Source of the DNA: a bacterium
Lineage (GTDB): Bacteria > Actinomycetota > Acidimicrobiia > Acidimicrobiales > CATQHL01
Direction: 5' to 3'
Assembly: GCA_026708055.1 (NCBI GenBank)
Contig: JAPOVS010000084.1
Coordinates: 1-41,483, forward strand
DNA: 41,483 bases
Both the position numbers and the translations under genes were made by a program. Below are positions 13,522-25,735 of this stretch, in pieces (the stretch's first letter is position 1; each line of letters opens with the position of its first letter). The notes beneath the pieces were generated by a model. It made no database searches and had not been told where the DNA came from. It was given only the letters and a program-made list of their open reading frames with translations.

Positions 13522-16410
13522 ATGAGCGATCGGCTGGTCATACAGGGAGCGCGCGAGCACAACCTGCGCGACATCACCCTGGAACTGCCGCGGGATCGCC
13601 TCATCGTCTTCACGGGCATCTCCGGCTCGGGCAAGTCCTCGCTGGCGTTCGACACGATCTACGCCGAGGGCCAGCGGCGCTACGTGGAGTCGCTCTCGGC
13701 CTACGCCCGGCAGTTCCTGGGCCAGATGGACAAACCCGACGTGGACTTCATCGCCGGGCTCTCGCCGGCCATCTCCATCGACCAGAAGAGTGCCTCCCGG
13801 AACCCGCGCTCCACCGTCGGCACCATCACCGAGGTCTACGACTACCTCCGCCTGCTGTTCGCCCGCGTGGGGGTGCCGCACGACCCCGAGACCGGCGAGC
13901 CGCTGGTCCGCCAGACGCCGCAGCAGATCGTGGACAGGGTGCTGCGCCTTCCCACCGGCACGCGCTTCCAGGTCCTGGCCCCGGTGGTCCGGGGTCGCAA
14001 GGGCACCTACGAGACGCTGCTGGCGGAGTTGGAGGCGGAGGGGTACGTGCGGGCCCGCGTCGACGGCGAGCTGTACGAACTCGCCGACGTGGCCGGCACC
14101 GACGCCGAGGGTCGGCCCCGCCTGGATCTGGCCCGCTACGAGATGCACGACATCGAGGTGGTCGTGGACCGGCTCGTCTGCCGGGAGGGGATCGAGAGGC
14201 GCCTCACCGATTCGGTGGAGGCCGCGCTGCGACTGGCCGACGGCGTGGTGCAGATCGAGGTGGTGTCGCTCGGGGGGGCGTCCCCTGAGCTTGCGCTCGA
14301 CGTGGAGCCGGGCGAGGTCCTGACCTTCTCCCAGCACCTGGCCCGGCCCAGCGACGGCAAGTCCTTCGAGGAACTGGCCCCGCGCAACTTCTCGTTCAAC
14401 TCGCCCTACGGTGCCTGCCCGCACTGCGACGGTCTCGGCACCCGCTTCGAGGTGGACCCCGACCTGGTGGTGCCTGACCCGTCGCTCAGCCTGGCCGAGG
14501 GAGCGCTCGCGCCCTGGAGCAGCGGCCACAGCCAGTACTACGAACGGTTGCTGGAGTCCACGGCGGAGGAACTCGGCGAGGATTTCGGCGCCCCCTGGGA
14601 GACGCTCGCCCCCGCCTCGCAGAAGGTTTTCCTGTACGGCGGGCTGGGCCGGCGGGTGCAGGTGCGCTACCGCAACCGCTACGGTCGCACCCGCAGCTAC
14701 AACGCCCGCTTCGAGGGCGTCATCCCGAATCTCCAGCGCCTGCACTCCGAGACCGGCTCCGACAACCGCCGCCAGCAGATCGAGGGCTACATGCGCGAGG
14801 TGCCCTGCAACCACTGCGGCGGCGCACGCCTGCGTCCCCTGCCGCTGGCGGTCACCATCGACGGGCGCAACATCGACGACGTCTGCACGCTGTCCATCCG
14901 GGACGCCGCCAGGCTGTTCGACGAGATCCGGCTCAGCGAGCGCGACGCTCTCATCGCCGATCAGGTGCTGAAGGAGCTGCGCTCCCGGCTGGGCTTCCTT
15001 CTCGACGTGGGGCTGGACTACCTCACCCTGGCGCGCTCGGCCGGCACGCTGTCGGGGGGCGAGGCGCAGCGCATCCGGCTGGCCTCGCAGATCGGCAGCG
15101 GCCTGGTGGGCGTGCTGTACGTGCTGGACGAGCCCTCCATCGGGCTGCACCAGCGCGACAACGCCCGGCTGCTGGACACGCTGCTGCGGCTGCGCGACCT
15201 ACCCAACACGGTGATCGTCGTCGAGCACGACGAGGAGACCATCCGCACCGCCGACCATGTGGTGGACATCGGGCCGGGCGCCGGCAGCCACGGCGGCGAC
15301 ATCGTGCACAGCGGCCCCGTCGAGGCGCTGCTGCGCAACGAGGAGTCGCTCACCGGGCAGTACCTCAGCGGGGAGCGCGAGATCCCGGTCCCGCTGCTGC
15401 GCCGCCCGCCCGGCGACGACTGGCTGGTCGTGCGCGGGGCGCGCGAGCACAACCTGGACGACCTGGACGTGGAGATCCCCCTGGGCTGCTTCGTGGCGGT
15501 GACCGGGGTGTCGGGCTCGGGCAAGAGCACGCTCGTGAACGACATCCTCTACCGGGCGCTCATGCAGAAGGTGTACCGCTCCCGGATGGTGCCCGGGCGC
15601 CACCGCGGCATCGACGGGGTCTCGGCGCTGGACAAGGTCATCAACATCGACCAGCAGCCCATCGGTCGCACGCCACGCTCCAATCCGGCCACCTACACGG
15701 GCGTGTTCGACCACATCCGCAAGCTGTTCTCGCGCACCAACGAGGCCCGGGTGCGGGGCTACCTGCCGGGGCGGTTCTCCTTCAACGTGTCCGGCGGCCG
15801 CTGCGACGCCTGCTCGGGCGACGGCAACATCCGCATCGAGATGCACTTCCTGCCCGACGTGTACGTGCCGTGCGAGGTCTGCGGGGGCGCCCGCTACAAC
15901 CGCGACACCCTCGACATCGCGTTCAAGGGACGCAACATCGCCGAGGTTCTGGCCATGTCGTGCGAGGAGGCGCTGGAGTTCTTCGCCAACCAGCCGGCCA
16001 TCGCCCGGCACCTGCGCACGCTCGTGGACGTGGGCCTGGGCTACATCCGCCTCGGCCAGCCGGCGCCCACCCTCTCCGGCGGCGAGGCGCAGCGGGTGAA
16101 GCTGGCCAGCGAGCTGGCCAAGCGCTCCACGGGCCACACCATCTACCTGCTGGACGAGCCCACCACCGGCCTGCACTTCGACGACATCCGCAAGCTGCTC
16201 GGGGTGCTCGGCAGGCTGACCGACGCCGGCAACACCATCCTGGTGATCGAGCACAACCTCGACGTCATCAAGACGGCCGACTGGATCATCGACCTCGGCC
16301 CCGAGGGCGGCGACGGCGGCGGCCGCATCGTGGCCGAAGGCCCCCCCGAATTGGTGGCCAAGCACGAAGAGAGCCACACCGGCCGCTTCCTGCGCCGCGT
16401 GCTGGCGTAA
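13522..16410 (+). CDS. uvrA: Excinuclease ABC subunit UvrA
   Basis: Damage-sensing ABC ATPase of the UvrABC system, 962 residues. The first ATPase half has Walker [10 protein letters not shown] (Lys38) and signature [16 protein letters not shown]. The second has Walker [10 protein letters not shown] (Lys668) and signature [16 protein letters not shown]. Zinc-binding cysteines appear as CPHCDGLG and CNHCGGARL in the first half and CDACSGDGN and CEVCGGARY in the second. Both Walker B/DEPSIGLH and DEPTTGLH boxes are intact. An in-frame GTG at 13492 would add ten residues, but the -10-like TACGCT lies between it and this ATG. The gene ends 19 bp from a convergent minus-strand gene. Confidence 0.97.
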
Positions 16411-16429
16411 ATCGTCGGACTGAGGCTGT

Positions 16430-18623
16430 CTATGGGGTGCGGGGTTCGTTGGCGCTCCAGCAGTCGATGGTCCCCTCGGGGCGGATGCCGCAGGTGTGGT
16501 AGGCGCCGGCGCTGACAGCGGTGAACGGCCCGGGAAGGGGGTCGGCGCGGGAGTCGCGCCATTGGTCCCAGATGTACGTGCTCCAGAGGGTGAAGTCGTT
16601 CTCGATGTAGTCGCCGAAGCTGTTGCCGTGGGGGGGCCAGCAGTGGAGGGTTCGGTCGGGGCGGATGCCGCAGGTGTGTCGGGTGCCGGCGTCGATGGCG
16701 GTGAAGGTGCCGCTGGGGGCGGTGTGTGGGCTGTCGGTTTCGTCTCGGATGGTGAGGCCCCAGCAGGCGACGGTACCGGTGGGGCGGAGCGCGCAGGTGC
16801 CGAATCTGCTCGCGGTGATGGTCGTGTAGGCACCGTCGGGGGTCGGTCTGTCGGCGGGTGTTGTCGCCCCAGCAGGCGACGGTGCCGTTGGCGCGTCGCG
16901 CGCAGGTGTGCCTCCCACCGGCGCTGAGCTCGTCGAACGTCCCGGCCGGCGCGGTGGCTTGGCCTTGGTGGTCGTTGCCCCAGCAGGCCACCGAGCCGTC
17001 GAGGCGCAGGCCGCACGCATGGCGGCCTCCCGGCGCGAGATGGCCGAAAGTCCCCGCGGGTACGTGCGAGGTGTCGTAGACCGGCCACCAGCGAGCGTCA
17101 CCCCACAGAAAGTGGTCGGGTTCGCTCGTGAAGTCCAGCAGGAACACTTCGCGCGGCTCGTGAGCCGTGGGATACCAGCAGTCGACGCTGCCGTCGGTGC
17201 GCAGCCCGCAGGTGCGCTCGCGGTCCGACGCGATCTGCGTGAACGTTCCCGACGGCGCAGCAGGGGGGTCGCGTTCGGGTCGCGCATATTCGGCCAGAGT
17301 GTGGATGGCGCCTCCCCAGCACGCGGCGCGGCCGTCGGCTCGCAGTCCGCAGTTGTGTGCTTTGCCGGCGCTGAGAGCCACGAACTCGCCCGCCGGAGGG
17401 GAGGACAGGCCTCCATAGTCGTCGCCCCAGCACTCGACTGCGCCGTTCGGGCGGATGCCGCAGGTGTGCTGCCGGCCGGCGGACACCGCCGAGAACCTCC
17501 CGCCCGGCGGGTCGTCGGGCCACGAGGGCGGATCAGGGTCGAGCATTCCATGGTAATTGTGCCCCCAGACCAACGCTTGACCCCAGCAACTCACCGCGCC
17601 GTCCAGCCGTACACCGCATTTGTATGTGTCCCCCGATGTGATCGTCGTGAAGTGGCCGTCGGGAGCGTCGTCGGATGTGCCGCAGTCGAGTCGGGCGTCG
17701 GGGCGGATTCCGCAGCCTCCGCTGAGGGCGATGAACGGCCCCGCCCGACTGCCGCTGAATTCGCCCCAGCACGTCATTGTTCCGTCGGTGCGGATGGCGC
17801 AGGGGATACCGGATTCCAGGGCGATGAAGGTTCCTTGGGGCGGTGAGGCCCGCCCTCCGCTGTTGCTTCCCCAGCAGTGGATCGTGAGGTCGCCGCGCAG
17901 CCCGCACACGCTCCGGGATCCCACGCTGATTTCCACGAACCTGCCGCGGTCCGCGTCGCCGAGAGGCGCGGTCGGCGCGGGTTCGCCGGCGGCAGTGAGC
18001 ACGACGGGTGTGGCGTAGGCCCAATCGTCTGCGCCGAGGGTGGCGTAGTCCAGCTGCGTTTCGCGTGGGTGGGCTGTGGTTCCGCTGGCGGTGAGGAGCG
18101 CGAGTTCGAGTTTCCCGCCCTCGACGCGGTGGGCCTGGATGCGCACCGTGGAGACGCCCGTCTCGGCGGGGCCGATGGGTGTGCTGGTCCACCAGTCGCC
18201 GATGGTGGCGTTGGGGTAGTCGAAGAGGTGGTCTTGGGGCTGCCAGTTCAGGGCGGTGGCGTTGACCCGCGCGCTGACCTCCACCGCCCCGCCGGCAGCG
18301 AGTCGCGCCCGCGGCTCCAGGTAGACGCGGTCGACCAGAACCCCGCCGCCGTCGCCGTCGGGCACCCGGCCCGGCGGTCGGGCCTGCACCGAGCCCCCGC
18401 CGAGCACAGCCGCCAGCACCGGGTCGTCGGCGACACCGGGCGGCCACTGGCACGCCGAGGCCACCAGCGCGGTGACGGCGGCGTAGGGGGACCGGCGGCT
18501 GCGGCCGCCGCCGGCGGAACGGCCCCGGCGCCGCACCCCGACCGAGCCACCGGGGGCGCCGGCGTTCCCCGTGCCGCCGCCGGGATCGTGCGGACTGCTC
18601 TTCACAGTGGGCCTATGGTCCAT
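16430..18623 (-). CDS. RCC1-like repeat lipoprotein/secreted protein, frameshifted
   Basis: The N-terminal region has an Arg-rich segment and a short hydrophobic stretch ending ALVASAC, which resembles a lipoprotein signal. A domain of about 200 residues of unknown fold follows. Then come 12 repeats with the pattern C-x2-R-x5-C, 11 of them followed by W (for example CGLRTDGSVDCW, CGIRPNGAVECW), each joined by a GxFxxLSAG-type strand. This is the RCC1/beta-propeller repeat, with a Cys pair per blade that could form disulfides outside the cell. Repeats 1-9 read in the frame of the ATG at 18623. Repeats 10-12, ending at a TAG at 16430, read in another frame. The +1 shift lies near 16850-16866 on minus-strand ACACCCGCC. 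It could be a sequencing error or a real lesion. Function unknown; surface binding is plausible. Confidence 0.75.
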
Positions 18624-18966: not shown

Positions 18967-19209
18967 ATGCCGGTGGCTTCTCCCAGGAATCCGGCGCGCC
19001 GGCGCCGACCGGGCGAGGTGCGTGACGCGATCGAGCGCGCTCTCGCGGAGGCCGGCGGTCCGCTTCTTGTGAGGGAGATCTGTGCAGCAGTTGCCGTTCG
19101 ATTGGGGGGCGGGGTCCCGGCCTCGTCGGTCCGTAGCTATCTCAACCTCAACGCCGGCGACGGGAAGCCCTTCGAGCGGGTGCGACGTGGCGTCTGTCGG
19201 GTCGCCTGA
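18967..19209 (+). CDS. Small winged-helix protein (HARE-HTH-like)
   Basis: The 80-residue product has a basic N-terminus (RNPARRRRPGEVRDA). One compact domain follows, whose pattern of hydrophobics and turns (EVRDAIERALAEAGGPLLV, REICAAVAVRLGG, VPASSVRSYLNLN, FERVRRGVCRVA) resembles the HARE-HTH winged helix. That fold is often fused to or encoded with restriction-modification enzymes. The assignment rests on pattern resemblance only. A GTG at 18838 would add 43 low-complexity residues; the -10-like hexamer 6 nt before the ATG favours the short form. The downstream methyltransferase probably starts inside its last codons at 19187, so the two are translationally linked. Confidence 0.6.
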   Translation: MPVASPRNPARRRRPGEVRDAIERALAEAGGPLLVREICAAVAVRLGGGVPASSVRSYLNLNAGDGKPFERVRRGVCRVA

Positions 19210-20137
19210 GACGCTCGAGCGCGTCGGCGCCGCGCCGGTTGGGTCGCCGGCTGTCCGGTGCGGTCGCGCCTTGTTGTTCCGGGCCGACTGTCTGGACTGG
19301 CTGGCGGGGCGCGCCGTCGAGTCGGTGCACGGGGTGGTGACGGACCCGCCGTACGGGCTCGTGGAGTACAGCGCCCTCCAGCAGGAGAAGCTCCGCAACG
19401 GCCGCGGCGGGGTGTGGCGTCTGCCGCCGGCCTTCGACGGCCACCGGCGTTCTCCGGTGCCGCGGTTCACGACCCTCACCGATGCCGACATCGGCGGTCT
19501 GCGGTGCTTCTTCGGGCGCTGGGCCGGGCTGCTGCTGCCGGTGCTGGTGCCGGGAGCGCACGTTCTGGTCGCCTCGAATCCCCTTGTCTCCCATCACGTC
19601 GCGGCGGCTGTTTGCGGAGAGGGCTTCGAGCGCCGCGGCGAGGTCGTGCGCCTCGTGATGACCATGCGCGGCGGCGACCGGCCGAAGAACGCCCACGAGG
19701 AGTTCCCCGGCGTGACGGTGATGCCGCGGTCCCGCTGGGAGCCCTGGTTGCTGTTCCGCAAGCCGGTCCGGGGGCGTGTGCGGGACAATCTCAGCGAATG
19801 GGGCACGGGCGGGCTTCGGCGGATCTCCGAGGAGCAGCCGTTCGCCGACGTGATCGCCTCGGCGCCGACCCGGCCCGCCGAGCGGCGGCTGGCCCCGCAT
19901 CCCAGTCTGAAGCCGCAGGCGTTCCTGCGCCAGGTCGTGCGGGCGATCCTGCCGTTGGGAACGGGTATCGTGCTGGACCCCTTCGCCGGCTCGGGCTCGA
20001 CGCTGGCCGCGGCCGAGCACGTCGGCTACGAGAGCATCGGCATCGAGTTCGACGCCGCGTACGTGGAACTCGCCAGGGGGGCGATCCCCCTGCTGCGCGA
20101 CTACGAGGCGGAACCGCCCACCGCCCGGTCCAGGTAG
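19187..20137 (+). CDS. Site-specific DNA methyltransferase (N6-adenine or N4-cytosine)
   Basis: Amino-methyltransferase of about 316 residues. Catalytic motif IV is TDPPYG (Asp53-Tyr56). The S-adenosylmethionine-binding motif I is DPFAGSGSTLAAA (from Asp264), followed by GYESIGIEFD. Motif IV preceding motif I is the beta-type permuted order; DPPY favours N6-adenine but does not exclude N4-cytosine. The region between (about 80-240) should hold the target-recognition part. GTG at 19187 is preferred because it overlaps the end of the winged-helix gene; the open frame also allows an earlier GTG at 19082. The 3' end overlaps a convergent PD-(D/E)XK gene by 37 bp, which suggests this is the protective half of a type II-like R-M pair. 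Confidence 0.85.
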   Translation: MASVGSPETLERVGAAPVGSPAVRCGRALLFRADCLDWLAGRAVESVHGVVTDPPYGLVEYSALQQEKLRNGRGGVWRLPPAFDGHRRSPVPRFTTLTDADIGGLRCFFGRWAGLLLPVLVPGAHVLVASNPLVSHHVAAAVCGEGFERRGEVVRLVMTMRGGDRPKNAHEEFPGVTVMPRSRWEPWLLFRKPVRGRVRDNLSEWGTGGLRRISEEQPFADVIASAPTRPAERRLAPHPSLKPQAFLRQVVRAILPLGTGIVLDPFAGSGSTLAAAEHVGYESIGIEFDAAYVELARGAIPLLRDYEAEPPTARSR

Positions 20138-20727
20138 ACCCAGCCCCGGCGTAGCTTGCCGACGCCGGCTTGGTGAAGCGTGGCTGTACGAGTCCCCAGT
20201 TCGCCGCGCTCGTTCCGCCGGAAGTCATCAGGTGTGACGTGGGCGAGGTACACCTCGGTGAACTGTAAGGGTTCTCGTTCGACCGCGGGCTCGGTCTCGT
20301 TGTCGATCCGGTAGACGAAGACACAGAACCATTGCTCGCGTGCACCGTGCGTGTCGACGGCTCCGCCCTTCTTCAGCGTTGATTTGACCTCGACGCCCTT
20401 CTCTCCTGACTTCACTGCGTCGTTGGGATAGACGCCCTGCACGACGAGATCGGGGTGCCCGTTGTGGTACCGGTTCTGCACGAGAGTCCGGGCGTGCGTC
20501 GCCAAGCTCGCTGTCAGCATGTCCGAGAGCGTCCCGGACAGATTCGCCTTTCTGAGTGTGTCCTCGAGCCGGCCGAGTCCCTTGCCGGTGAGGTGGACGT
20601 TGACGTCGTGGAAGAAGTCGTAAACGTCCTGCATCGCGGACTCGAAGTCGAGGATGCGCAACTCGTAGGGAAGGGCAACGTACGGGTTGAAGCCCGCGGC
20701 ATTGACCAGTTGGCGTTCGATGACCAT
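20101..20727 (-). CDS. Putative PD-(D/E)XK restriction endonuclease
   Basis: Protein of 208 residues with the nuclease core pattern Asp93 (in GHPDLVVQG) followed by Glu113-Val-Lys115 in KGVEVKSTLKK. This is a PD-x(n)-E-x-K site in the expected beta-strand context, and it is followed by QWFCVFVYRI, a typical next strand. It lies convergent to the DNA methyltransferase with a 37-bp tail-to-tail overlap. That context points to the restriction half of an R-M system rather than a repair nuclease. ATG at 20727 is supported by a -10-like TATCGT 6 nt upstream on the minus strand. I do not recognise a named family or cut site. Confidence 0.68.
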   Translation of the reverse strand: MVIERQLVNAAGFNPYVALPYELRILDFESAMQDVYDFFHDVNVHLTGKGLGRLEDTLRKANLSGTLSDMLTASLATHARTLVQNRYHNGHPDLVVQGVYPNDAVKSGEKGVEVKSTLKKGGAVDTHGAREQWFCVFVYRIDNETEPAVEREPLQFTEVYLAHVTPDDFRRNERGELGTRTATLHQAGVGKLRRGWVYLDRAVGGSAS

Positions 20728-20739: not shown

Positions 20740-20933
20740 TGGCCGCAGCGCCTGCCGTCGGAATCGAACGCGTTGTCCGGCCGTTTGCCCGCTGGCCGGC
20801 GGTGTACTTGAATGTTCCCGTTACGGTGCCTCGGGAAACCGCGCGTGCCAGTTCCATAAGCGCGGGCGCCGGCCGGACCGCAACGATCCGGAAGGTGCCT
20901 CACCACGACCCAACCCACAGGGGGAGAGACCAC

Positions 20934-22529
20934 ATGACACGTAGACGCAAGAGCCGTTGGCTCGTGATTCCGCTGCTGGCCGCGCTGGCCGTACTGGCGG
21001 CGTCGTGCGCCGACACGAGTGCGGCTGACGACGCGCTTGCCGAGGCCCAGGCGGCCCGGGCCGACGCGGCAGCGGCACAGTCGGACGCGGCGGCCGCGCA
21101 GGCCGACGCTGCCGCGGCGAACAACAGGGCGGACGCCCTCGAGGCCGAGACAGCGGCCGCCAACGCCGCTGCCGCCGCAGCGCAGGCCGCTGCGGACGCG
21201 GCCAGCGCGGCGGCGGATCTGGCACAGGCCACCGCCGAGGGCAACGTCGAGGCTGTTGCCGCCGCAGAAGCGGCCCTGGCAGCCGCGTCGGCGACGGCCG
21301 AGGAGGCGCAGGCGTTCGCCGCGCAGGCGCAGGAGGAGGCAGCCGCGGCGCAGGCCGAGGCAGCCGCCGCACAGGCTGAGGCCGAAGCGGCGCAGGCCGA
21401 GGCAGCCGCGGCGCAGGCCGAGGCCGAGGCCGCGGGCGAGGAGGCCACTGCCGCCCAGGAGGCGCTCGAATTCGCAACCGACCAGCTCGCAGCCGCGCAG
21501 GCGGCCGCCACCGAGGCCGGTGGCGACCTGCCGTTCACGCATGTCCTCAGGGACGGCAGCGACTTCGTGCTGAACGAGCGCATCGCCCGCAAGATCCGGA
21601 CCGGAGAGCCGGTCAACTACCTGTTCTCCTACCAGTCCTCGGGCATCGCGCTGTTCTCCGACCAGTACGAGGCGGGCTTCCGGGCCACGCAGCAGGACGC
21701 CTACCGGATCTACCCCATGAACTTCACGGTCGTGGCGCCGGTGACGTCTCCCTTCGACATCCAGGAGCAGATCGCCCAGATCGAGGCGCAGGTCGCCGTC
21801 GATCAGGTCGACTGCCTGTCGATCGAGCCGGCTGACTCCAACTCCTTCACGGAGCTCACCAACCGGCTCCTCGCCGACGGCATCCCCGTGTTCACCGTGG
21901 GCCTCACGACGAACGGCAACGAGTTCACGAACTTCACCCAGGTGCCGTACAACGAGGGCCGCCAGGCCGCGGAGCTCTCCGTGGAGTTCATGCGGGAGAA
22001 CGGGTACGAGTGGGACACCTTCATGGTTTCCGGCGGTGACCCGACGCAGTTCTGGGCCCAGGGCCGGATGACGGGGTTCTACGACCGCATCCTGGAACTG
22101 CTCCCCGACGCCGAGTTCCTGACCACTCCCGAGAACGGGATCCAGGTCGGCGGCGGCGGCTACGACCCGGGCATCAGCTACGACGACTACTCGGCGATCC
22201 TGGTCGGCAACCCCGAGCTGGACTTCATCGAGAACGTGGACATCGGCGCCGAGCACGCCAACCGGGCGATCATCGACGGTGGCCGCGAGGGCGAGGTGTT
22301 CACGATCGGCTGGAACGTCAGCTACGGCCAGCTCGACGGCGTCGAGCGGGGCATCCAGGTGGCGGCGCTCGACCAGCGCTGGTCGGAGCAGGCCGGCTTC
22401 GGCGCCATCGCCTGCGCCGAGTTCCTGGCCAACGGCCGGATCCTGCCGAACACCCAGACGCTGCTCCCGATCCAGAAGGAGCAGGTCGAGGCGGCACGCC
22501 GCGACCTGGACCTGATCCTCGGCGGCTAG
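20934..22529 (+). CDS. Sugar-type ABC transporter substrate-binding lipoprotein with long Ala-rich coiled-coil stalk
   Basis: Lipoprotein of 531 residues: basic N-terminus MTRRRKSR, hydrophobic core, and lipobox LAASC with acylated Cys25. Residues about 28-195 are a low-complexity Ala/Glu/Gln helix built from near-repeats such as AAAAQAEAEAAQAEAAA. The ligand-binding domain starts near residue 200 (LPFTHVLRD) and has the periplasmic-binding-protein type 1 pattern (Peripla_BP_4/RbsB class), including VDQVDCLSIEPADSNSF and YNEGRQAAELSVEFM. It should capture a sugar-like ligand outside the membrane for the permease and ATPase encoded downstream; the ligand is unknown. ATG 20934 has a strong GGGGGAGAG ribosome-binding site, so the frame's upstream extension is not used. 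Confidence 0.88.
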   Translation: MTRRRKSRWLVIPLLAALAVLAASCADTSAADDALAEAQAARADAAAAQSDAAAAQADAAAANNRADALEAETAAANAAAAAAQAAADAASAAADLAQATAEGNVEAVAAAEAALAAASATAEEAQAFAAQAQEEAAAAQAEAAAAQAEAEAAQAEAAAAQAEAEAAGEEATAAQEALEFATDQLAAAQAAATEAGGDLPFTHVLRDGSDFVLNERIARKIRTGEPVNYLFSYQSSGIALFSDQYEAGFRATQQDAYRIYPMNFTVVAPVTSPFDIQEQIAQIEAQVAVDQVDCLSIEPADSNSFTELTNRLLADGIPVFTVGLTTNGNEFTNFTQVPYNEGRQAAELSVEFMRENGYEWDTFMVSGGDPTQFWAQGRMTGFYDRILELLPDAEFLTTPENGIQVGGGGYDPGISYDDYSAILVGNPELDFIENVDIGAEHANRAIIDGGREGEVFTIGWNVSYGQLDGVERGIQVAALDQRWSEQAGFGAIACAEFLANGRILPNTQTLLPIQKEQVEAARRDLDLILGG

Positions 22530-22617: not shown

Positions 22618-23754
22618 GTGAGCAACGACACGAACGACGCAGGGAACACGGTGTCCGAGGAGCCTCGCGGCCGGGTTCTCCCGCGGCTCGGGGGGCTGGG
22701 CCTGCAGCGCGTCGGCGGGCTGCTGGCGGCGGTCGTCATCGCGGGGTTCATCTTCGCCGTCTGGTCGGACTGGCTGTTCCTCAAGACGGGGAACCTGGTC
22801 GTGATGATCAGATTGATGGGCGTGCTCGGCATCATCGGCCTCGGTCTGCTGGTCGTTCTCCTGGTCGGTGAGATCGACCTGTCGTTCTCTGCGCTGGCGG
22901 TTCTTTCTGCCGTCGTCATGGGGAAGATGTGGGTCGAACTCGGCTATCACATCGCAATCGGGATCCTGGTTGCATTCGCCGTCGCCATCGGCGTGGGCCT
23001 GTTCAACTCCTTCTTCGTGAACGTGGTCAAGGTTCCGTCGTTCATCGTGACTTTGGGATCCAACACACTCGTTTTCGGGTTCACCCTGCTCATCAGCAGG
23101 AACACGCCGATCCTGGCGCAGAAACTGCCGCCGGACCCGGAGGAATGGCAGGTACGCGGCGGCGATTACGTCGACGCCGCCGAGTACACGTTCTTCCGGG
23201 CGCTGGCCAGCAACTACGCGCTGCCCGGCCGCTTCCCACTCCAGGTGGTCTGGCTGGCGGGCTTCGCGATCGTGTTCGGCATCCTGCTGTCGCGCGGCGT
23301 GTTCGGCTTCAGGATGAAGGCCATCGGCGGCAACGAGCAGGCGGCGGTTCTGGCCAAGCTGCCCGTCCGCCGCTACAAGACGCTGGCCTTCATAATCTGC
23401 GCCGTCATGGCGGCCGTGGGTGGCCTGCTGGACTTCTCCTTCATCTCCCAGGTACAGCCCAACCAGGGTGGCGTCTACCTGTTCCCGGTGTTCACGGCCG
23501 TCATCGTCGGCGGTGCGAGCCTGTCGGGAGGGCGCGGCACCGTCTCGGGCACCCTCCTGGGCGCCCTTCTGCTGGCCGTCATCTCCAACGGCCTGGCCCT
23601 CAACGCAACAGGCGCGTTCGTGCAGCAGATGTGGCTGGGTACGGTCACGATCGGCGCGGTCGTGCTGGATCAGTGGACGCGGAGTCGCCAGCGGAGCGAG
23701 TCGCTGGGCGCCGGACTGCGAGATCTGGGCAGGCGACTCGGTCTCCTGAGGTGA
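22618..23754 (+). CDS. Sugar ABC transporter permease (RbsC/XylH type)
   Basis: Membrane subunit of 378 residues in the BPD_transp_2 family, with about ten hydrophobic segments. The diagnostic signature VGEIDLSFSALAVLSAVVMG lies near residues 82-101. IGGNEQAAVLAKLPVRRYK (about 238-256) is the cytoplasmic loop that docks the ATPase, followed by VGGASLSGGRGTVSGTLLGA near the C-terminus. It forms the sugar channel with the flanking binding protein and ATPase. GTG at 22618 follows AGGGGGAAG. It sits 36 bp past the hairpin and 10 bp before the ATPase gene. Confidence 0.92.
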   Translation: MSNDTNDAGNTVSEEPRGRVLPRLGGLGLQRVGGLLAAVVIAGFIFAVWSDWLFLKTGNLVVMIRLMGVLGIIGLGLLVVLLVGEIDLSFSALAVLSAVVMGKMWVELGYHIAIGILVAFAVAIGVGLFNSFFVNVVKVPSFIVTLGSNTLVFGFTLLISRNTPILAQKLPPDPEEWQVRGGDYVDAAEYTFFRALASNYALPGRFPLQVVWLAGFAIVFGILLSRGVFGFRMKAIGGNEQAAVLAKLPVRRYKTLAFIICAVMAAVGGLLDFSFISQVQPNQGGVYLFPVFTAVIVGGASLSGGRGTVSGTLLGALLLAVISNGLALNATGAFVQQMWLGTVTIGAVVLDQWTRSRQRSESLGAGLRDLGRRLGLLR

Positions 23755-23764
23755 GTAGCAGGCG

Positions 23765-25339
23765 ATGACGGCTGTGGTCTCCGGCGAGAGCATCGTCATC
23801 GAGGGGCTGCACAAGCGCTACGGCGACACCGTCGCGCTCGACGGGCTGGACATCACCGTGCAGCCCGGCGAGATCCTGGGCATCGCGGGGCCCAACGGTT
23901 CGGGCAAGAGCACGATGGTCAAGACGCTGGCGGGCGAGGTGATCGCCGACCGGGGACGCGTCCTGCTGGACGGCGCCGAGCGCGACGCCGCGGATCTGGC
24001 CGCCCAGGTGACGATCGTGCACCAGGAGCCGCAGGTCTTCCTGAACCTGACGGTTGCGGAGAACCTGCTCGTCGGCAGGGAGCACAGGAAGATCCTGAAC
24101 CGGCGCATCGATGCCGCCGAGTCCGAACTGCTGGCGGACATGGGTCTGAGCGCACACACCGACACGCCTCTCGAGCATCTCCCCCTGGCGGCGCAACAGC
24201 GCACCGAGATCGCCCGCGCCCTGGCGCAGGATGCCCGCATCTTCCTGTTCGACGAGCCCAACTCGGCTCTGACAGAGGAGGAGTCCGAGGATCTCTTCCG
24301 CCGTATGCACGACCTGGCCGACTCCGGGCGCCTGGTGATCCTGGTGTCGCACCGGTTGCACGAACTGGTGGTGCATGCCGACCGGGTGGGGATGATCATC
24401 GACGGCCAGTGCCGGGTGATTTTGACCGGCGACGACCTGACAGAGGAACGGGTCGCCCGCGAGCTTGTCGTCGGCGTGTCGCGAGATGCGGTGGATGGCG
24501 GCGAGGTTTTCTCTGAAGGTGCCGCCGCGGCGCGAGCCGACAGCGAGGACGGTCCGGTCGCCCTGCGGCTCTCGGGCTGGACGCACCGCGACGGCGGATT
24601 CTCCGACATCGACATGTCGGTGGGACGCGGCGAGATCGTGGCCATCTCCGGTGTGGAGGGATCCGGGGCCCGCGCACTGGTCCACTCGCTGGCGGGCTTC
24701 GCCCCGGCGACCGGCACGCTGCAAGTCGGCGTGGACAGCACCACCGAGACGAACGGCGACGGCAAGAGCACCAAGGCCGCCACCGAGCAGGTGGGGTTCG
24801 TGGGGGCGAACCGGGCCGAGAACCTCTTCTTCAACCTCTCGGTGGGCGAGAACCTGCTGTCCCGCCTCACCGTCGACATCAGTGACCGGCTGGGGTTGCT
24901 GCATCCCCGGACGATGCGGGACGCGGCCGAGCACCTCGCCGACCAGTTCCAGGTCAAGGCCGGCTCGGTGGACGATCCGATGGGATCGCTCAGCGGCGGC
25001 AACCAGCAGAAGGTGGTCATCGGTGCGGCCACCGCCACCCGCCCGAAGGTCCTGGTCCTGGAGGAACCCACGCGCGGCGTCGACGTGGGCAGCAAGTCCG
25101 AGATCTACCGGCTGCTGCGCCAGTACGCCGATCCGGAAGGTCAGCTGGGGCTCCCGGGGATGGAGGGCCACGGCGAGGCCGTCGTCCTGTACTGCACCGA
25201 GGACGCCGAGATCTTCGAGGTCGCCGACCGGGTCTACGTGATCGCCCAAGGTCGCATCTCCGGCGAGCTGACCCTCTCGGACTACGACGACGTGGAGTCC
25301 TTCGCCGCCGACCGAGTGCGCCTCGAAGCCGGCGGCTAG
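23765..25339 (+). CDS. Sugar ABC transporter ATP-binding protein (RbsA type, two NBDs)
   Basis: Fused double ATPase of 524 residues. NBD1 has Walker A GPNGSGKST (Lys48), signature region LPLAAQQRTEIARAL and Walker B IFLFDEPNSAL. NBD2 (from about residue 255) has the degenerate P-loop SGVEGSGARAL, lacking the Lys as is usual in this family. It keeps signature SLSGGNQQKVVIG and Walker B LVLEEPTRGVDVGSK. This layout is the CUT2 class (RbsA, MglA, XylG). The NBD1 signature reads LPLAAQQ rather than the usual LSVGQQQ, a notable divergence. Third gene of the binding protein-permease-ATPase operon. Confidence 0.92.
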   Translation: MTAVVSGESIVIEGLHKRYGDTVALDGLDITVQPGEILGIAGPNGSGKSTMVKTLAGEVIADRGRVLLDGAERDAADLAAQVTIVHQEPQVFLNLTVAENLLVGREHRKILNRRIDAAESELLADMGLSAHTDTPLEHLPLAAQQRTEIARALAQDARIFLFDEPNSALTEEESEDLFRRMHDLADSGRLVILVSHRLHELVVHADRVGMIIDGQCRVILTGDDLTEERVARELVVGVSRDAVDGGEVFSEGAAAARADSEDGPVALRLSGWTHRDGGFSDIDMSVGRGEIVAISGVEGSGARALVHSLAGFAPATGTLQVGVDSTTETNGDGKSTKAATEQVGFVGANRAENLFFNLSVGENLLSRLTVDISDRLGLLHPRTMRDAAEHLADQFQVKAGSVDDPMGSLSGGNQQKVVIGAATATRPKVLVLEEPTRGVDVGSKSEIYRLLRQYADPEGQLGLPGMEGHGEAVVLYCTEDAEIFEVADRVYVIAQGRISGELTLSDYDDVESFAADRVRLEAGG

Positions 25340-25363: not shown

Positions 25364-25735
25364 TCAGGCGGCGCACCGCGCGTATAGGGTCAGTTCTCTG
25401 GGGACGAGACGCTCGGCGATCGGGTCCACCGTCAGGGCGAGGCCCTCGAGGGTGTAGGCACCCAGCAGGGGCGGGGATCCGTCCTCCCCGAAGACCACCA
25501 AGGTCGTGACGCTTTCGCCGTCGATAGTTGCCCGCGCTTCGCCGATGTCCGCATCGATGAGCCGCCCGTCGGCGAGTTGCAGTCTGCGCTTGAAGAGGGG
25601 CTTGACGCCGAGTTCGCGCAGGAGGGAGGTGGGCAACTGCGTGTAGAAGGCTCCGGTGTCGACAGTCGCCTCGACGTCGGCTGTTCGCTGGTCGTCCATG
25701 TCCGCGATTCGGAGCGGCCAGTTGAAGATTCCCAC
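25364..25735 (-). CDS. Small retropepsin-like aspartic protease family protein
   Basis: Protein of 123 residues with the single catalytic triad Asp26-Thr-Gly (EATVDTGAFYTQLP), a hydrophobic flap-like region, and LLGAYTLEGLALTVDP near the end. This matches the one-lobe clan AA (gag-asp) proteases that must dimerise to form an active site. Bacterial members are mostly uncharacterised, so the substrate is unknown. The start is GTG on the minus strand, with GAGGAG about 6-8 nt upstream. It stands alone, converging on the ABC-importer operon and divergent from uvrC, with an AT-rich patch upstream. Confidence 0.72.
   Translation of the reverse strand: MGIFNWPLRIADMDDQRTADVEATVDTGAFYTQLPTSLLRELGVKPLFKRRLQLADGRLIDADIGEARATIDGESVTTLVVFGEDGSPPLLGAYTLEGLALTVDPIAERLVPRELTLYARCAA

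Follow-up and report, generated by a model that had tools for sequence, protein, structure and literature searches.

The window, by which we mean the whole stretch of 41,483 nucleotides analysed here, comes from an uncultured actinobacterium and contains on its forward strand a gene for a substrate-binding lipoprotein (the focus protein) and, downstream of it, genes for a permease and an ATPase. The features of this region are:

20920..20929 (+): purine-rich sequence GGGGGAGAGA, similar to a ribosome-binding site, read from the sequence
20934..22529 (+): whole gene of the substrate-binding lipoprotein with its predicted hairpin, 531 amino acids and stop, from reading of the ORF
20934..21005 (+): lipoprotein signal peptide, 24 amino acids, by pattern
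21018..21233 (+): predicted helix 1 of the hairpin, mature residues 5-76, from AlphaFold2 and heptad statistics
21234..21245 (+): predicted turn A-E-G-N, mature residues 77-80, from AlphaFold2 and conservation
21246..21521 (+): predicted helix 2, mature residues 81-172 (stalk-only model) or 81-170 (full model), from AlphaFold2
21522..22526 (+): ligand-binding domain, from Pfam and structural alignment
22618..23754 (+): permease, BPD_transp_2, Pfam E 1.6e-29
23765..25339 (+): ATPase with two ABC_tran stretches (RbsA/AraG-like), from Pfam

The ATG at 20934 opens a frame with the N-terminus MTRRRKSRWLVIPLLAALAVLAAS, which is followed by the lipid-accepting Cys25 (codon 21006-21008; lipobox LAAS followed by C, called by pattern only). 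An Ala-rich tract of ~170 residues lies between Cys25 and a CUT2-type domain. In the first-pass annotation the protein had been described as a binding lipoprotein whose Ala-rich, coiled-coil-forming tract is encoded by repetitive DNA, and these points were borne out. The lipobox is joined by a Peripla_BP_4 domain, the ORF is unbroken through 21015-21518 with a heptad pattern and predicted helices, and TRF reports two arrays with a period of 21 bp, one heptad per unit, at 21051-21118 and 21326-21424, the latter falling inside helix 2. The tract is real as an observation.

Pfam places the Peripla_BP_4 match at residues 235-488 (21636-22397) with an E of 4.1e-19 and 69.6 bits against a cut-off of 35.1, and the predicted binding domain aligns to the solved CUT2 sugar-binding fold 4rxt with a VIA-align Z of 28.0 (rmsd 3.2, 287 residues). 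The permease and double-ABC ATPase genes, downstream on the lipoprotein's strand, make up the usual CUT2 importer set. By domain, fold, operon and lipobox the focus protein is a predicted sugar-binding lipoprotein of the CUT2 (RbsB-like) type, but it differs from other such lipoproteins by the 170-residue stalk between lipid Cys and domain. The usual picture of a substrate-binding lipoprotein is that of a domain held by a short, flexible tether.

Other genes of the window were noted as well. A DNA methylase of the N6_N4_Mtase type (19082-20137, +) adjoins a convergent ORF of 208 amino acids (20101-20727, -) without Pfam match, and the two are possibly a restriction-modification pair. An RCC1_2 repeat protein of up to 826 amino acids is encoded at 16143-18623 (-), and a small ORF matching Asp_protease_2 (25364-25735, -) follows shortly after the importer operon, on the opposite strand.

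For the focus protein 17 related loci were found: five congeneric, one from the sister genus, ten alphaproteobacterial and one from Thermoleophilia. Judging from isolate-name prefixes, the genus is presumably sponge-associated. The congeneric orthologues (L027, L028, L029, L030 and the contig-cut L043, corresponding to the genes L010-L013 and L015) come from five of seven congeners, with the G003 copy cut by its contig. In the same search G001 gave no orthologue match and G006 only a weak match to another protein; a contig-cut ORF of G006 starts with a signal peptide and stalk of the focus type. Start codons of the orthologues are likewise preceded by stretches similar to that of the focus gene. 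All six congeneric and sister-genus (L031) orthologues share the type of signal peptide, lipobox and tract seen in the focus protein, and because these stand upstream of the domain, a true start near residue 195, which had been considered before, is excluded. Variation in tract length between relatives, anticipated from the repeats, is indeed seen: from Cys to the turn Gly, arm 1 measures 78 residues in the focus protein, 85 in L027 and L028, 78 in L029, 71 in L030 and L043 and 55 in L031, and within the genus it changes by heptads. The tract is absent from the ten alphaproteobacterial homologues (52-57% identical), which have a signal peptide and a short linker instead, and the Thermoleophilia homologue has a short Ala/Thr-rich linker.

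Distribution of the stalk within and outside the genus

When the focus protein was compared with its own genome (G000), other frames matched over residues 1-190, and the five such frames that were read carry this stalk on binding lipoproteins from other families. A stalk confined to the focus gene is thereby ruled out, and the fusion that the first-pass annotation had proposed to look for on other importers turns out to be much more widespread than anticipated. With a stalk alignment of seven rows, 15 matches were obtained in this genome at E<=1e-3; at E<=1e-8 the eight genomes of the genus (G000-G007) gave 15, 5, 25, 12, 24, 17, 5 and 14 (117 in sum) and the sister genus (G008) gave one, which makes nine of nine genomes of the family positive. 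None of 51 relatives' genomes from other families matched. In a sample of the class, where the own genome was the sole member of its family, it alone matched among 395 at this threshold (0/394 others), in a search that scored fewer candidates per genome, recovered 8 of the 15 own stalks and hence tests presence, not number.

A broader stalk model gave six matches in G008 at E<=1e-3, and the impression that the stalk occurs there on the CUT2 protein only was an artefact of the strict threshold. Relatives in G008 of the stalked C34c, C34a, C56 and C36 (74-80% identical to the nearest) have Pro/Thr-rich linkers, and those of the focus, C17, C35 and C87 cluster (62-77% identical) have the stalk. 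At E<=1e-6 the broader model matched five genomes of the class beside the own one. In four of these, inspection by eye identified five lipoproteins whose two-helix Ala stalk is shorter and has another turn; the fifth gave a single match, to a protein that is no lipoprotein. Such shorter stalks, with the turn EGDEASQAAL or GGEEAQAAL, belong to other families of the class (L182, L184, L185, L186 and L188) and are perhaps an independent or distant version. In a phylum sample the broader model matched none of 395 others at this threshold.

To the 78 proteins that were extracted, G000 contributed all of its 15, G002 25, G004 24, the five remaining genomes of the genus 13 together and G008 one; 40 of the 117 genus matches lie outside this set. 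By a script rule, a lipoprotein-type signal stands just before the stalk in 76 of the 78, and the other two are cut at contig ends. Their domains form 22 clusters of at least two members and four singletons, three of the latter truncated. Pfam was run on the 22 cluster representatives and the focus protein (23 clusters), 20 of which exceeded the cut-off of a binding-protein family (OpuAC, SBP_bac_5, SBP_bac_1/8, NMT1, Peripla_BP_4, Peripla_BP_6 or Bmp). The remaining three gave Peripla_BP_1 below its cut-off, no Pfam hit, with the gene lying between two BPD_transp_1 genes, and Peptidase_M16. This peptidase is a lipoprotein of ~1070 amino acids (L089:1183-3951, G004:C54; G002:C64), with the same stalk followed by a Pro/Glu-rich linker. 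Judged from sequence, the stalk is a shared cassette that precedes binding domains of seven Pfam families and, in one case, an M16 peptidase, and nearly all stalked lipoproteins appear to be substrate-binding proteins of ABC importers; more than 20 different nutrient-binding proteins of unrelated families bear it in the genus. Chance likeness from Ala-rich composition is ruled out by the blank class genomes together with heptad-block shuffles, as the scores of stalk pairs within G000 beat the best of 60 shuffles in 87 of 91 pairs.

The cassette is common but not general. By the list of stalk hits, 6 of 14 SBP_bac_5 and 2 of 8 SBP_bac_1 matches of G000 are stalked, and among the eight unlisted SBP_bac_5 genes L137 has a visible stalk. 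Import does not require the cassette, since many such genes stand outside the stalk hits. Pro/Ala-rich linkers of ~65-105 residues occur in several unstalked binding lipoproteins of the genus, and linkers of only 23-26 in others. Across this bacterial family, many unstalked binding lipoproteins have long Pro/Ala/Glu- or Thr-rich linkers in place of the hairpin (L133, L151, L163, L167-L169, L173-L175, L132 and L140).

Heptad register, arm lengths and predicted fold

Counted from the turn Gly, Ala is found in all 23 clusters at +8, +15, +19, +22, +26, +29, +33, +36, +40 and +43, and +12 is Leu in all 23; in arm 1 a seam of 3-4-spaced positions from -6 to -51 is 91-100% Ala. Polar residues show autocorrelation at 7, 14 and 21. 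In these alignments, which like their scores are biased by Ala-rich repeats, both arms carry Ala at heptad core positions in the manner of an Alacoil. The turn A-E-G-N of the focus protein is the centre of the conserved core LAQATAEGNxxAVAAAEAAL, and non-Ala conservation peaks around this tip, LAQATAE-G-N/S-xxAVA.AEAAL (L, Q, T, G, N/S, E and L). The shorter core LA..TA.G[NS] occurs 74 times in the 78 extracted proteins and the exact LAQATAEGN in 47 of them. Beside Ala, the stalks consist mostly of acidic and small polar residues, with a mean charge of about -11 and -13 per arm.

Both arms were measurable in 73 of the 78 proteins, and their lengths correlate with r 0.78, a correlation that, like those below, is not independent of cassette ancestry. 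Over the means of 23 domain clusters r is 0.86-0.87, and within clusters it is 0.69 (18 of 20,000 within-cluster permutations were equally high). With one representative for each of the 23 clusters, arm 1 less 8 leader residues minus arm 2 gives 1.0 +/- 7.4 residues. Arm 1 has exactly 61+7k residues in 33 of 73 proteins, and 13 of 23 distinct non-zero within-cluster differences in its length are multiples of 7; for arm 2, whose end is ill-defined, this holds for only 11 of 56 distinct differences. The length of arm 2 depends on how its end is defined, so that the focus arms are 78/90 by one rule and 78/72 by another. Exceptions occur: L027 and L028 are one heptad longer than the focus protein in arm 1 and not in arm 2, and arms are unequal in G000:C43 (103/78) and G004:C19 (98/44).

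For monomers, and from alignments only 16 and 7 rows deep, AlphaFold2 predicts for the mature focus protein a helix at 5-76, a break at 77-80, a helix at 81-170 and the binding fold (pLDDT 82, pTM 0.60), and the same break for the stalk alone (173 residues; pLDDT 89.9, pTM 0.69). The stalk model aligns to 7nna with a VIA-align Z of 13.8 (rmsd 1.8, 170 of 173 residues), to 6ewy with 13.3 (rmsd 2.5, 172 residues) and to 2ysu with 10.9 (rmsd 2.5, 123 residues), where by the tool's own caution a Z of about 13 can reflect merely a common arrangement of long helices. We take 7nna, 6ewy, 9hmx, 2ysu and 1ujw to be helical hairpins. Foldseek with the stalk gave no E below 0.001 (best 0.14) in lists that say nothing on the absence of other families, and the stalk sequence matched no PDB chain at E<=0.001.

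The hairpin topology was read from secondary structure, pTM and structural matches rather than from coordinates or PAE. The tract is best explained as a predicted antiparallel helical hairpin rather than one long rod, and models and arm lengths point to two closely packed antiparallel arms. An open or domain-swapped rod may also be compatible with the monomer model, and oligomerisation of the stalk is possible. A TPR-like reading of the turn was an impression by eye only and was dropped. Structure prediction, which the first-pass annotation had named as a check, upholds its helical tract; its single long helix carrying the domain tens of nanometres out is not supported, in view of two predicted helices, a break at Gly-Asn and matched arm lengths. 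With two helices on either side of this break, and arms that match on average to about a heptad, the chain would be expected to lead the binding domain back towards the membrane. The focus model has 90-92 residues in helix 2 and 72 in helix 1, so that a hairpin standing upright on the membrane would clash unless tilted or bent.

Several known systems resemble the stalk in part. Alanine-zipper (PF11839, Lpp-like) lipoproteins, which form a parallel trimer, share lipid-anchored Ala heptads in the envelope; the stalk differs by its two arms and turn and by its fusion to many unrelated ligand-binding domains. The focus stalk matches no Pfam family at E<=0.01, and one of ten stalks matches Alanine_zipper at 0.00075. 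Alacoils are antiparallel helix pairs of the ROP and ferritin types, which share with the predicted stalk pair Ala at core positions, whereas in the stalk many heptads of each arm have Ala in both core positions, and the pair has a putative role as tether cassette. The long hairpins of colicin receptor-binding domains (2ysu, 1ujw), the RipA N-terminal domain (6ewy, 9hmx) and 7nna are similar in arrangement, but they differ in function and have no sequence match to the focus stalk at E<=0.001.

Exchange between loci and selection on the stalk

For 11 of 73 stalk DNAs the best match is the stalk of another domain cluster, in seven cases within the same genome; three of the 11 lack a hit to a cluster-mate for comparison. 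The clearest case is a pair of proteins of one congener, G004:C80b and G004:C45, which have domains that are 26% identical and stalk DNAs that are 86% identical over 516 nt. The C80b domain is 95-96% identical to three orthologues and its stalk DNA 75% to that of the best one, and the C45 domain is 87-97% identical to its own orthologues. A further protein, G004:C80c, has a short stalk, yet its domain is 94-96% identical to those of long-stalked orthologues.

Stalk dN/dS is 0.08-0.16 among five full congeneric sequences (aligned stalk), a sign of selection on the protein sequence; against the sister genus it is 0.16-0.29, and in general it is not lower than that of the domain. Purifying selection on the stalk may concern helicity only. 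Third positions agree to 61% in the stalk and 86% in the domain (76 orthologue pairs with domain identity >=80%), and the stalk is at least 10 points lower in 70 of the 76. A codon artefact was rejected as the cause of this higher synonymous divergence, because the effect is kept when conserved Ala codons alone are compared: third positions agree to 54% in the stalk and 76% in the domain, with the stalk lower in 68 of 72 pairs, against chance expectations of 35% and 46%, and misaligned repeats could add to the effect. Our reading of these sequence comparisons is that cassettes are exchanged and heptads turned over under selection for the protein pattern.

Possible function and rival explanations

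Comparison of sequences allowed us to show a cassette on unrelated domains with a heptad register, correlated arms, exchange and purifying selection. We consider it probable that the tract is an exchangeable Ala-heptad (Alacoil-like) hairpin cassette which, in many extracytoplasmic lipoproteins of one Acidimicrobiia genus, links the lipid Cys to the folded domain. In such a hairpin, helix 1 would lead from the lipid anchor to the conserved G-N/S tip and helix 2 would run back from it; the binding domain would be suspended from helix 2, with an additional Pro-rich tether in several paralogues, and would be brought back towards the membrane, as would suit transport. The hairpin is probably a common near-membrane positioning or association element. 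Because the tip and Ala seam persist irrespective of the domain, it might tentatively be proposed that different binding proteins come together through their hairpins, or that these bind one shared partner in the envelope, so that the receptors lie in a common layer close to the membrane and not on long rods. We are more doubtful of a docking module by which receptors for unrelated nutrients co-assemble, through four-helix contacts or a tip partner, into mixed near-membrane arrays whose membership is rewired by cassette swaps.

The hairpin could also be a bulky spacer or retention device that fills the space near the membrane and holds the wall off or prevents shedding, with no specific partner. 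This explanation, which is somewhat unlikely in our view, would account for a strongly negatively charged sequence dominated by Ala, with acidic and small polar residues besides, for stalk lengths that differ between strains and for the stalk on a peptidase. However, it is the non-Ala tip residues that are best conserved across unrelated domains, beyond the needs of bulk, although they may be a folding nucleus only. We favour the positioning or association element, with the passive spacer as a close second and the long rod as less likely.

Such an extended rod would consist of near-collinear helices in a parallel, Lpp-like Ala-zipper dimer or trimer, with the domain ~25 nm out, reaching into the wall or across it. 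Parallel Ala zippers would likewise be compatible with heptads that have Ala in the two core positions, and the weak match of one in ten stalks to Alanine_zipper agrees with this, as do the long Pro/Ala-rich linkers of unstalked lipoproteins, which look as if distance mattered (others being much shorter). We nevertheless regard the rod as unlikely, since the helix is broken by a conserved Gly-[Asn/Ser] followed by helix-start-like residues, the stalk-only pTM was judged high for an extended 173-residue helix, near-equal and correlated arms would have no obvious reason and the receptor would be moved away from its permease. That slippage and gene conversion have simply spread a neutral, self-reinforcing repeat in secreted proteins is highly improbable: the 21-bp arrays, the rapid synonymous divergence and the exchange would be expected from such drift, but the low dN/dS among congeners, the invariant Ala seam with its conserved turn and the position directly after the lipid Cys in nearly all extracted proteins argue against it.

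Here one genus bears the same predicted helical hairpin on many receptors of several unrelated families and on a peptidase, and moves it between genes. This offers a testable system for the effect of receptor position and clustering at the membrane on uptake, and a natural set of Ala-only coiled coils in stepped lengths; it also illustrates how the evolution of tethers can be uncoupled from that of the ligand domains. Among the titles listed in our literature searches none concerned such a hairpin cassette, and the text of PMC12263773 contains neither 'lipoprotein' nor 'coiled'. Another arrangement of receptor domains was noted in a lipoprotein-like ORF of up to ~785-790 amino acids (G000:C27:104172-106130, minus strand, L002/L003; G004:C52, L021:1408-3762, minus strand), in which a Pro-rich linker is followed by two nearly identical tandem Peripla_BP_4 domains, a duplicated CUT2-like receptor in one chain.
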